64,000 bases of DNA from Branchiostoma floridae (lineage: Eukaryota; Chordata; Leptocardii; Amphioxiformes; Branchiostomatidae), in assembly GCF_000003815.2 (NCBI RefSeq), contig NC_049979.1, positions 9,122,264 to 9,186,263 of the forward strand, written 5' to 3'. A model generated the notes under the pieces. That model was not told the origin of the DNA and did no database searches. It saw only the letters and a program-made list of their open reading frames with translations. The stretch's first letter is position 1. Every line of letters starts with the position of its first letter. This document shows, one piece after another, positions 7,943 to 13,900 of this stretch. The position numbers and the translations under genes were made by a program.

Positions 7943-10900
7943 TTATCTATGTTTATGTACAAGGCCATAGAATATTGTTGTAGGATCAGCTAGCAGTTCT
8001 TGCGGGGATGCGAACTCCACCACCCTTCCTGCACTCATGACCAGGACCCGCTCACTGTCCATGATGGTGTTCGTCCTGTGTGCAATGGTGATGACAGTGC
8101 TATGAGCAAACTCCGTCCGGATGGTTTGCTGAATGAGTCGGTCAGTCTCTTGGTCCACATTAGCAGTTGCTTCATCAATGCACAATACCTTGGACAGACA
8201 GAATGATGGCACCAAAGTATGCATGAGTAGACAATAACAACAGCAGCTACTATTCAACATGAATTCTGAGCCACAAAAATTTACTTCCATTGCATGCATA
8301 ACAGGACAATTCATGATTATCTTTTGACATCAAAGAGATAACTGCCATTCTTTAAGCCATCTGTGACACTTAATGGCAACAAGAACTTTCATTGCAAAAG
8401 AGGCAATTAGTCTTTCACTTTAAATCTGAGCCCAGGAAACTCCACATCTGTTATTGCAGTAGGGCTACATGTAGCTACTTTGTGCCTCACCTTTGCTCTG
8501 GTGAGAATAGCCCTTGCCAGGCACATCAGCTGCCTCTGGCCAGCAGAAAACACCTTTCCCTTCTCACCCACCTCAGCCTCCAGCCCTCCCAATTTCTGTG
8601 GAAAGTCACAAGGCCCATGAATCATCAATATTTTGTACACCATAACTGGGTTTGTTAGATGTCATGTCTCCAGCTTTTGTTGTACTACTTGAAATAGGAT
8701 GATTGGCAGTTCAATAAGATTGGTAACTTGACTGACAGGTCAGTAGGTCTAAACTTTTGCATTCTGACTGTTTCTAGTAGGAAACCTGTTTCTAGTAGGA
8801 AAGCATGAAACTGTGAGAAACTATAATTTTAGATAAAAGATCTCTCTGACAGAAAGTATGTTTTTCAAATCCTTTTAATATCTAACACTCTGCAGGTGGT
8901 GCAGAACTGTGGATGTCCTTTGTTTACCTGAGACATTAGAGTGATGAACGATAAGAACCATTAGTTAGTGATTTTAAAGGGAGCTAGGTCACCTGCACTG
9001 TTGGCTTGAGGTGACATTTTTCCAGAATGTTCCACAGGTCAGTGTTGCTGTAGACATCTCTGGGGTCCAGGTTCTCCCGGACTGTCCCACCAAACAGGAA
9101 CGGGTCCTGGGGAATCACTGCCAGTCGAGATCTGGGGAAGGAATTGGAATCCAGATATTTGAAATCACGCTTCCGCACAATAGATAACTCGAATATTTCT
9201 AAAAGGGGTGCCTTATGATTGAACACTATATCTTACAACACTTCTCATTCTCATGTAATCATTTTCATATACATTCATCTTAAAAACTGGTGTTGTTGTT
9301 TTTTGGGACATTCATTCAAGAATGTAAAGAAGGTTTAGACAATAATTCATAACCATGCTCGAAATGATAGTTACTCAAGCAACTGGATATGATTTTGGAT
9401 TTTGTTTCAGCAACTATCATTTGGCAGATGTCTAACCAGCCTACAACACTAGGAAAAACATAGAGGGTACAAGGTCTCATAACACAGTAATTATCCGCGA
9501 CCCCCGTCCCCAAAAGTAGTTCGGGTTAAAATAGTGCATCGCGGTACTTGCAAAGGCCGTATTTATTCTTCCGTGCACGACAGCGAGGTGGAATCTGTGG
9601 TGAATAGTAGAGGAATACATCGGCGTTCATACTGTATAAGTTGGATTACGTCGCTTTTTCGGCCGGCGGGAATTTGCGCCTTGATATGTTACCGGCACTT
9701 CCTGTTCGCCGCCTGCAGTTCCATGACCTCCGCTGGGGGTCAAATCAAAGTGTCTGTTATAGAAAAACGAGCCGGCAAATCTATGCTCATCTTCAGATAT
9801 TTTGTAGCTTGTACCCTCAACTTCAACATACTAAATTCTTGTGAATTGTATCTGCACCCTACTATAGGTTTTGAGTCGTCGAACCACCTCACTTTGGGGT
9901 CCTTAACCATGTAAATCCCCATACCCGAAAAACTGTGTTCTGAGACCTTCATCCACAGCGTGAATTCCCCAGGGACGGACAAGCACATTAAATTTGACCG
10001 ATATGTTGGTAATTGACCTCAGCTGACTTGAACTGTAACATTTTCGTTACCGTCTGACCCGCCGTTACCATGGCAACGGCCGCCTAGACCGTTCCCTATG
10101 CTTAAGTATAGGACTTAGTGCGGTCTAAAGCCCGCTCGACTCCCCCCCCCCCCTTTTTCCGCCCTAAAAAAGACAAACCCCCAACCCCAATCACTCATAA
10201 CGGTAGAATGTGGTCTGGCAAGCTCCTTATAACAGAAAAAGTCAACCAGAATATCAAGTTTGTTGAGATAATGAGACCAATTAGCGGCCCCTCAGATAGT
10301 CCTTGTACAGTGCCGACACCTGTGCTAGGCGCCAAAGTGCAAAGTTGGCCATATCTCAGGAACCATTTGGATTTCTGCTCTAAAATTTGGTACGGTTTTG
10401 TATCTTGACTAGTTTTATTGTATGAACGTAAAGAAATCCAAGGTCAAGTTGGCTTAAGGTCTCATAACACAGTAATTATCCGCGACCCCCGTCCCCAAAA
10501 GTAGTTCGGGTTAAAATAGTGCATCGCGGTACTTGCAAAGGCCGTATTTATTCTTCCGTGCACGACAGCGAGGTGGAATCTGTGGTGAATAGTAGAGGAA
10601 TACATCGGCGTTCATACTGTATAAGTTGGATTACGTCGCTTTTTCGGCCGGCGGGAATTTGCGCCTTGATATGTTACCGGCACTTCCTGTTCGCCGCCTG
10701 CAGTTCCATGACCTCCGCTGGGGGTCAAATCAAAGTGTCTGTTATAGAAAAACGAGCCGGCAAATCTATGCTCATCTTCAGATATTTTGTAGCTTGTACC
10801 CTCAACTTCAACATACTAAATTCTTGTGAATTGTATCTGCACCCTACTATAGGTTTTGAGTCGTCGAACCACCTCACTTTGGGGTCCTTAACCATGTAAA

Positions 10901-13900
10901 TCCCCATACCCGAAAAACTGTGTTCTGAGACCACAAACTGACCTTAATCTTTGTAACTCAACCATTCTGATGTCCACATCATCAATTTTGATGGTGCCTG
11001 TTTGGATGTCTGCCATTCTGAACAGGCACAGAAGCAGGCTGGACTTGCCAGCCCCAGTTCTACCCACCACTCCAACCTTCTCTCCAGGGTTGATGCTGAA
11101 GCTTACATTGTCCAGTGCCTGAAATGGAGGGGCTAACAGTATTGCACATGCTAGAACTGTTATGTAATAATGAAATATCACATTCTTTGGCAATACATGT
11201 AGTATTACACAAATTCATTACATTAGGAACAACATCATTCTTAAAGCCTCCTGTACAGACCTTTTGGTTAGTTTTTGGGGGCCACTGATTTGTTCTGTTT
11301 TCTGTTTCCTGCAAGTAATATGACCAAGCATTTTCAGTATGCCAACCAGTCTAGGTAGTAGGCTAATTGTTAACTGGTCTGATCTGCACTATTCAACACA
11401 GGGTAACATATGCTAGTTAAGAAAATATAACATCAAACGACCAACATTGAGAACATGCACTTTGGACCAACAGTGACAGAATTTTGTCGTCCTACCTTAG
11501 GTAGACCCTGTCTGTACGTGAGGTTGACGCCCTGCCATGATACAGCTCCATGTTCTGGCCATCTTCTACTAACCTGCAGAACATTTTAATCATCAACATG
11601 ATGGACTTCAAACCAACTGATCCGTCGGTACCCCAGTTATATTAGCAACAAAACTATTATTCCTTCCAAAATGCACTCCTCTAAAGAGTGCATTGTTGAT
11701 CTGTAGGTTACTTCTTTTAATACTATGATGAAAGAGCTAAACAGAGAACTGCATGTAAACTGATAGTGGCTAATTCGTTTAGAAACCAACATCACCAGAA
11801 TGGTTACACCCTAACCCTAACCCCTAACCTAACCCAACCCCTATGTTCCCAAACCTGTATGTTCCAGTACCCATATGTTCTGACACTCTATTCCTATCCC
11901 TAAATCTAACCCTAACATAGGGCTTCTAGGGGCATAGGAATGCAGGATTGTCAGAGAATAAGGGCATTCCTTCAACATAAGACTGTCCTCTACAGTAGGT
12001 ACATTGATACATCTTAAGGCTGCTCCTACCTCTAAGACTCCATCTGTCCTCTCCCATGGTATGTTCTTCACGTACTGCACGGCTCGCTCCACACTAACCA
12101 TCTGCTTCTCAGTCTCTGTGAAGGAGGTGACGACTCCTGACAGCAGGTTGGTCACTGACAGGGCGTAGGAGATGGCCAGCCCTACCAGTCCTACAGACAA
12201 ATCCACCAAGTCCGACTCATCACATGTTTACAACACTGCCATACATACAAGACATACTGGCCATTCTCCTAAAGTCATTTTGATCAACAACAGATTCTCT
12301 TTACTTCTGATTATCAAAAAGCAACACCGCACACTCACCTGGATCTACTGTTTGAAAATGATGCTCCAGCACTGCAATGAAGGCCACACCAGTTACCATG
12401 GCAACCCCTAGCAGCTGCAGACGGATGCCCAGCCAGCTGGAGGCCACCTGGCCAGAGAAGCTGGCTCGCTGGTTACACTCTAGCCTTGTCTTGTTCTCGT
12501 GTTTAAATCTGAAATGGTATCAAAGCAAAGTCCCTATGTTATGAAGAAAGTATGTTTATATTTAGTATTTCATTTGTTCCGCATGTCACACCAAGATCCA
12601 ATAAATATGATTGCAATTGTTCACCTCAAGATGCCATTTGACACCAAACACAACACAATTGTCACAAAACACAATAACTATTTGGTCCAATTACAATATC
12701 ATCGACCAACAAGTGCAGACAAAAGGTTTAAGTGTAGTTTTTGTCTACTATACTGAAGTGTTTCATAAAGCTTATTCTTCTACAGAATATGAACTTACCT
12801 GTGCACAGCTCTGAGCCCCCTGATGGTGGTGAGGCCTGTCAGTGTCTCTGAGAAGTGAGCGTAGATGGGAGACAGACTAACGCTGTCCAGGCGCTTCAGC
12901 TCACGGGAGGTGTGTCGGTAGTATTTCTGTAGTACGAATAAAAAGGACATATTATGGCAATATAGTGTCATAAGCAGCTACATGTATAAATAAAAAGTAT
13001 TTTAAATTCATAACTGAAACATTTCAAATCGTATGTAAAGGATGAATAAATTGTAAACTTTAGGACTGCATAAGAAACTCTCTACAAAGTTTAAATGGAG
13101 TCTGCATTCTGTTGAAAAGAAGATGCACCATGCTATAAGATATTTAAATATTCCTTTCTTCTTTGATCCATGCCTCAAATATGAGGGAAGCTTTTTTTAT
13201 CTCATAATGGAAGCATCAAATGAGGGAAACAATTGAATGATGTACTCTTCAGGACTGTGTCCCTATACCAGACCTGTATCCTATGGTAGATAAAAGCCAG
13301 AGGCAGCAGTAGCACAGTGAACCAGGGCAGTCCGTAACACGTCACCACAATGGTTCCCGCCACGCCGTATGTCTGGGCCAGGAGGATGTTCATGATGAAG
13401 GGCAGGGAGTCGTCGATGGAGTACATGTCTGACGAGAAGCGGTTGACTACTCGGCCAATCGGTGTGGTGTCAAAGAACTGGATCTTTGCCTACAGGTAAA
13501 GATTGAAAAATATCATTTATAAGTTTAATTGGTGATTTAGAGAAGACTGATTTAGCAAAATGCATGTATATGACCCAGCTAACATCTTTTCATATTCTTG
13601 ATAAGGATGTATACACAAAATTGATTAATGAGAAAGGGTATGCCATGGCTCTCTACCGATACATACCAACATCATAACATGTCACTGCAACCACTTACTG
13701 AAACCTTCACAACTATACAATGTAGTACAGCATATCTTGGCACTCTTGATAATTTCTGGGAGTACCTGGAGAATACTGTTAAGCAGCTGGTCATGCAGCA
13801 CCCTGGCTGCACAGATCCCACCATAAGCAAACAGGAAGGCCCTGAACAGGGTGAAGATGGTGTTGGCCCCAGCTAATGCCCCATACACAGTCAGGTAGAA

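Follow-up and report, generated by a model that had tools for sequence, protein, structure and literature searches.

A probable non-autonomous KolobokP transposon close to a splice donor in Branchiostoma floridae

KolobokP is a lineage of DNA transposons described by Kojima and Bao in 2022 (PMC9587614) from seven animal phyla, Branchiostoma floridae included, in which an internal region (INT) is enclosed by long terminal direct repeats (LTDRs) of approximately 450 or 660 bp, each LTDR possessing inverted termini of 11-18 bp of its own and ends of the form RR...YY. As far as that account goes, target duplications measure 3-5 bp, LTDRs also occur alone, and multimers adopt the forms (LTDR-INT)n-LTDR and LTDR-(INT)n-LTDR, with INT-INT joints from which one linker has gone through a loss of 3-4 bp. 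Autonomous members encode a DDD/E Kolobok transposase and a His-Me finger nuclease, and the non-autonomous families of oyster are 1738-3261 bp in length (PMC9587614). Here we describe an element situated in an intron of an ABC transporter gene on a 64,000-nucleotide stretch of B. floridae DNA (NC_049979.1, positions 9,122,264 to 9,186,263; the window), which is very probably a non-autonomous KolobokP transposon of LTDR-INT-LTDR structure with a 4-bp target, and which would be mobilised in trans by a Kolobok-type transposase. The placement rests on structure; the identity of the transposase and the order of events we infer.

The element occupies window positions 9473-10932 (1460 bp) and comprises two plus-strand LTDRs of 475 bp (A; 9473-9947 and 10458-10932), identical at 475/475 positions, on either side of a 510-bp internal region (B), while the duplicate ACAA is read at 9469-9472 and again at 10933-10936, in agreement with the preliminary description of this DNA, which had reported an A-B-A arrangement of identical repeats flanked by ACAA. 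The exact stretch common to both copies of A extends to 477 bp because AA precedes each of them, as part of ACAA on the left and of TTAA inside the element. The left terminus of A, GGTCTCATAACACAGT (9473-9488, plus strand), has 157 exact copies in the genome and none in a reversed control, and the complement of the right terminus, ACTGTGTTCTGAGACC (9932-9947, minus strand), has 268 as compared to 2; the two termini are complementary at 15/16 positions and give A the ends GG...CC. B consists of a 502-bp core (9952-10453, plus strand), which is joined to the left A by the 4-bp linker TTCA (9948-9951) and to the right A by the 4-bp linker TTAA (10454-10457). No protein was recognised in the minus-strand reading frames of the core, the predicted folding of B was no better than that of shuffled sequences (z 0.31; 64/100 shuffles equal or better), and one exact 22-mer pattern of B found no match in viral contigs. 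The insertion is seemingly recent.

The 513.4 Mb genome, in which the window lies on contig C1, was searched for further copies, and both the solo 475-bp repeats and the full A-B-A copies that the preliminary description had proposed to look for are present. At least 40 matches to A at 99-100% identity (best 40 of 880 candidates scored) and at least 53 matches to B (best 40 of 222 candidates scored) are spread over many contigs, rather than the sole A-B-A in the genome that had been named as the outcome speaking against a mobile family. Among the first 100 positions of each terminus, which are complete for both termini on C1-C5 and on C6 to approximately 27.44 Mb, 42/46 terminus pairs span 475 or 476 bp. 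Twenty loci fetched around A and B matches display the forms ABA, (AB)nA, ABBA, ABBBBA, AABABBA and a 14-piece mixture (L034), some of the twenty having a single outer A only or being cut by N, and two to four B may follow one another within an array. A further 20 left-terminus regions comprised 15 with A but without B in reach (91-100% identical to the window A, except two at 75-76%) and 5 in which B adjoins A. Copies of the window subfamily are mostly 99-100% identical and the family is young; a second subfamily, 7-8% divergent, bears the same terminus at both ends and has the same architecture. Adjoining an A terminus at L070:212-360, a 17-nt piece of A is repeated five times at a spacing of 33 bp.

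Target duplications were assessed at the 39 places where A forms both outer ends and both outer flanks were read. A perfect flush duplication was found in 23 of these (22 of 4 bp and one, L057, of 5 bp), a duplication displaced by one base in one (L077), and unmatched flanks in 15; perfect duplications flank 7/15 arrays of the window subfamily, 3/5 arrays of the second subfamily, to which the displaced case is to be added, and 13/19 single A copies (12 of 4 bp, one of 5 bp). The duplicated sequences include ACAA, TTGT, TTAT, ATAA, TCAA, ATGA and TTGA. A is a mobile unit in its own right. L056 was scored as unmatched, the alternative being a displaced duplication (ATAA, A, TTC, ATAA), as was L075, where a piece of B lies 40 bp off and which is therefore not a clean single A. 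Six arrays (C1:16008257, C5:1432814, C12:22486886, C13:13547781, C14:7278134 and C15:6885883) and three single A copies (C18:9056643, C7:9459073 and C11:625087) were read at their edges, with the interior taken from spacing and search matches. Outside the 39 stand places whose outer end is B, cut or unfetched, examples being L019, L022, L023, L026, L029, L031, L032, L035, L036, L038-L040, L044, L048-L051, L053, L055, L058, L060-L071, L078 and the C4 and C8 edges; at three of them, ends that are B or a shortened A are nonetheless flanked on both sides by TTAT (L022 and L036) or TTTGT (L029).

The joints at which B meets B without an intervening A are informative as to how the arrays have changed. 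A of the window subfamily sits between TTAA on its left and TTCA on its right, and 11 of 13 B-B joints of this subfamily retain linker letters, namely TTAATTCA in four, TTCA in four, TTTTCA in two and TTTCA in one; both linkers are thus complete in 4/13 and the others are short of letters, the remaining two joints (L030 and L036) having lost more. A genome scan that tolerated two mismatches returned 9 places, as compared to 3 in the reversed control; five of the 9 are exact TTCA joints and none has TTAA alone. In the second subfamily, where A sits between TTCAA and TTGAA, either linker may be retained, TTCAA in four places and TTGAA in two, these six belonging to 38 places with no more than two mismatches (the control gave 9). 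Two of the six were read: L078 is a clean joint, and L077 continues for ten bases in B before it switches to A. Of the four others, two (C4 and C5:1435683) are supported by the spacing of termini. As a gain of A would be expected to leave two equal linkers, retention of either one of two different linkers points to loss of A, and the joints without A look like excision scars.

These observations agree with the published description of KolobokP (PMC9587614) in the features it gives: the LTDR-INT-LTDR order with near-identical direct repeats, an LTDR of 475 bp as compared to approximately 450 bp, GG...CC ends that satisfy RR...YY, 15/16 inverted termini on each LTDR, duplications within the 3-5-bp range (ACAA in the window), solo repeats, multimers and linker-deficient INT-INT joints. 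The element differs from the described KolobokP in that its internal region is just 510 bp and encodes no recognised protein. The preliminary description had suspected an unusual class, and unusual it is, albeit one that had been described already in 2022 (PMC9587614). Its TRIM-like label (terminal-repeat retrotransposon in miniature) is not supported. Identical long direct repeats, a short target duplication, solo repeats and tandem forms would all suit a TRIM or another long terminal repeat (LTR) retroelement with unusual ends, and TRIMs are likewise small and non-coding with long direct repeats, solo repeats and tandem arrays (PMC9587614). However, A has 15/16 inverted termini and ends in GG...CC, which, like the 4-bp duplication ACAA, are a misfit for TG...CA LTRs, as was remarked at the outset; the left A is followed by TTCATCC, without TGG, so that no primer-binding site is seen by eye, as had likewise been noticed, nor is a polypurine tract; A occurs alone with duplications; and it is absent from scar-like B-B joints that retain linkers, in arrays with two to four consecutive B. 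On the GG...CC ends and the joints without A the LTR/TRIM reading was rejected, and we consider it very improbable. The alternative once offered, a tandem pair of miniature inverted-repeat transposable elements (MITEs), came near the truth, A being a self-standing unit with inverted termini. An ordinary MITE pair of another superfamily (relaxed TTAA type, piggyBac-like) which trapped B and moves as a composite would account for A alone behaving as a MITE and for the many TTAA-like targets. The termini of piggyBac begin CC..., and its strict TTAA duplication is not what is seen among the duplicates listed above. The GG...CC termini, moreover, follow the Kolobok 5'-RR...YY-3' rule (PMC9587614) and the tested features of structure are those of KolobokP, which renders such a composite unlikely. 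Tandem arrays of MITEs are also known as the CMITE arrays of corals (PMC2872659), which by their description differ from the present arrays, where there are two modules and intact arrays begin and end with A; the Tetris foldback element of Drosophila virilis (PMC4079207), likewise modular, is a non-autonomous DNA transposon from which tandem arrays develop, but these arise from tandem repeats within its inverted repeats, unlike here. An assembly artefact or a unique local duplication, to which the N gaps that break some arrays (L032 and L019) might point, is refuted for the family by the recurrence of A, B and the joints on many contigs with differing flanks and duplications, and is exceedingly unlikely.

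Several observations weigh against the assignment to KolobokP. At 1460 bp the element is shorter than the oyster non-autonomous families given in PMC9587614 (1738-3261 bp), and 16/39 places are without a flush perfect duplication. The preliminary description had also called for an autonomous relative sharing the termini of A, and none was tied to A. In favour of the assignment, nuclease genes of the KolobokP type are present: the I-PpoI-like His-Me nuclease family PF05551 has 41 matches in the genome, 32 of them above the curated cut-off, and none in 14 control genomes, which are unnamed and for that reason weak evidence. However, as judged by eye, no nuclease match is less than 5 kb from an exact A terminus among those listed (complete for C1-C5 and, for both termini, C6 to approximately 27.44 Mb), nor from any of 52 places, as compared to 12 in the reversed control, that fit a pattern with differing sub-terminal bases, intended to catch relatives with another interior. 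The 1 kb adjoining the two nuclease genes of a pair on C10 has only chance-level short words like A, and the 75% relative of A used as a query returned itself and then A copies of both subfamilies, and no helper. No helper with A-like ends was thus tied to A, no transposase search having been made. Nuclease genes do occur in pairs, 3952 bp apart on C10 (11452370 and 11456322) and 4152 bp apart on C2 (16466279 and 16470431), and these are probably multimers of autonomous KolobokP elements of approximately 4 kb.

The outer repeats of the arrays bear on how such insertions begin. Both outer A copies are intact in 14 loci, and in 10 of these the outer pair is identical, as compared to 20/182 cross-locus left-right comparisons, with none of 20000 permutations reaching 10 identical loci, and in 7/14 both outer copies carry a variant absent from all other loci of the set; across a total of 56 copies of A the mean difference is 1.2 sites within a locus and 2.7 between loci. 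L034 has two variants common to its outer copies and absent from one inner copy, and L037 has one that is absent from two inner copies. Since unequal crossover does nothing to homogenise the outermost repeats, a founder with one repeat is favoured as the origin of their identity, which fits such a founder without proving it. On the other side, the outer copies differ at 9 sites in L037, at 2 in L027 and at 1 each in L021 and C17:7528041, and gene conversion from one outer copy to the other could give the appearance of a one-A founder. In L037 the differences of the last A (7260-7735) are clustered in its right part, unlike the four other copies, owing to either conversion or an assembly error.

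The unmatched flanks are of a particular kind, as in 11 of the 15 places they equal the internal linker of the family itself. The right flank is TTCA in seven places of the window subfamily (L025, L027, L028, L030, L033, L034 and L056) and TTGA in four of the second (C15:6885883, C11:625087, L076 with TTGAA and C7:9459073 with TTGAG), and none of the 11 bears the letters of the other subfamily (Fisher p 0.003, for categories chosen after the data were seen). The other four (L024, L043, L075 and C165) have neither linker on the right, L024 having TTAA on the left. This rule is blurred by L055, of window type with a right flank of TTGAA, and by L065 and L061, of non-window type with TTCA, in all of which the left outer flank is unread; TTGA is, moreover, found as a normal duplication (C13 and C18). 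Outer flanks equal to the linker and private variants common to the outer repeats are not among the features in the part of PMC9587614 that we draw upon. The flanks may represent either donor bases brought along on insertion or the removal, at some later time, of a B-A unit through two like-end cuts, and they fit, but do not prove, a founder molecule that had a single repeat. Such removal of a unit (B-A or A-B), with joining of the 4-5-nt overhangs, would leave flanks of identical letters (A|TTCA or TTAA|A) besides yielding solo A, yet it would be needed on both sides at L030, L033, L034 and C11:625087, except where the target itself had been TTAA or TTCAA; we regard it as a serious possibility that falls short of an even chance.

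The sequence of events that we favour would begin with a molecule carrying one A (or an AB multimer), probably a circle or some other one-repeat intermediate, leaving a donor array. On its joining to a new 4-bp target, one A would come to stand at both outer ends, and transposase acting in trans would later excise single A units to produce B-B joints in which one linker or both remain; unequal crossover may also alter the number of units. That KolobokP insertions are founded by a single-repeat molecule, joining of which copies the repeat to both ends and sometimes keeps 4-5 donor bases, is a tentative proposal that we consider doubtful as a whole. Alternatively, arrays may be made solely in place, units being added by unequal crossover after cut-and-paste insertion of A-B-A, which is among the models discussed for KolobokP (PMC9587614). 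The tandem units, the alternating unit types of L037 and L026 and the matching 4-bp duplications outside 10/20 arrays are in agreement with this route, which is credible if somewhat less than probable; crossover, however, leaves the outermost repeats unchanged, and gene conversion would be needed in addition to render them identical in 10/14 loci with private variants in common in 7/14.

The host gene, a putative ABCC10 with a putative exon 20 in the preliminary description, matches ABC subfamily C at the protein level, with ABCC2 as the best match. The exon concerned, of which the 5' limit is assumed, lies at 10943-11118 on the minus strand with its donor GT at 10942-10941, and on this strand it ends ...GATTAAG while the intron opens with GTCAGTTTGT, directly followed by the A of the element; the right ACAA accordingly lies within the first 10 nt of the intron and the element begins 10 nt past the donor, as was noticed previously. 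Element and one ACAA account for 1464 nt of the 1811-nt intron, and joining of the donor to the acceptor of the next exon, which starts at 9131, preserves the reading frame. The six bases GTCAGT at the start of the intron are unbroken, and normal splicing is therefore the default expectation. A scan for RNA families in and near the element gave one match, sub-threshold and outside it, to SNORD14 (9312-9419, minus strand, same intron; 18.8 bits where the gathering score is 64, E 2.1); it overlies a 21-nt inverted repeat and is probably due to chance. Within B, GTTACCATGGCAAC at 10064-10077, which we take to resemble the RFX (X-box) palindrome, is a possible regulatory site transported by the element.

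The case illustrates how easily KolobokP-like elements may be mistaken for TRIMs, and a seemingly recent insertion so near a splice donor (10 nt) provides a natural test of the effects of such elements on splicing. If true, single-repeat founding would mean that a DDE transposon of animals follows a copy-out/paste-in or cointegrate-like pathway. The question of a circular intermediate for KolobokP was left open in 2022 (PMC9587614), and a young family with many arrays and readable linkers makes it testable in B. floridae.

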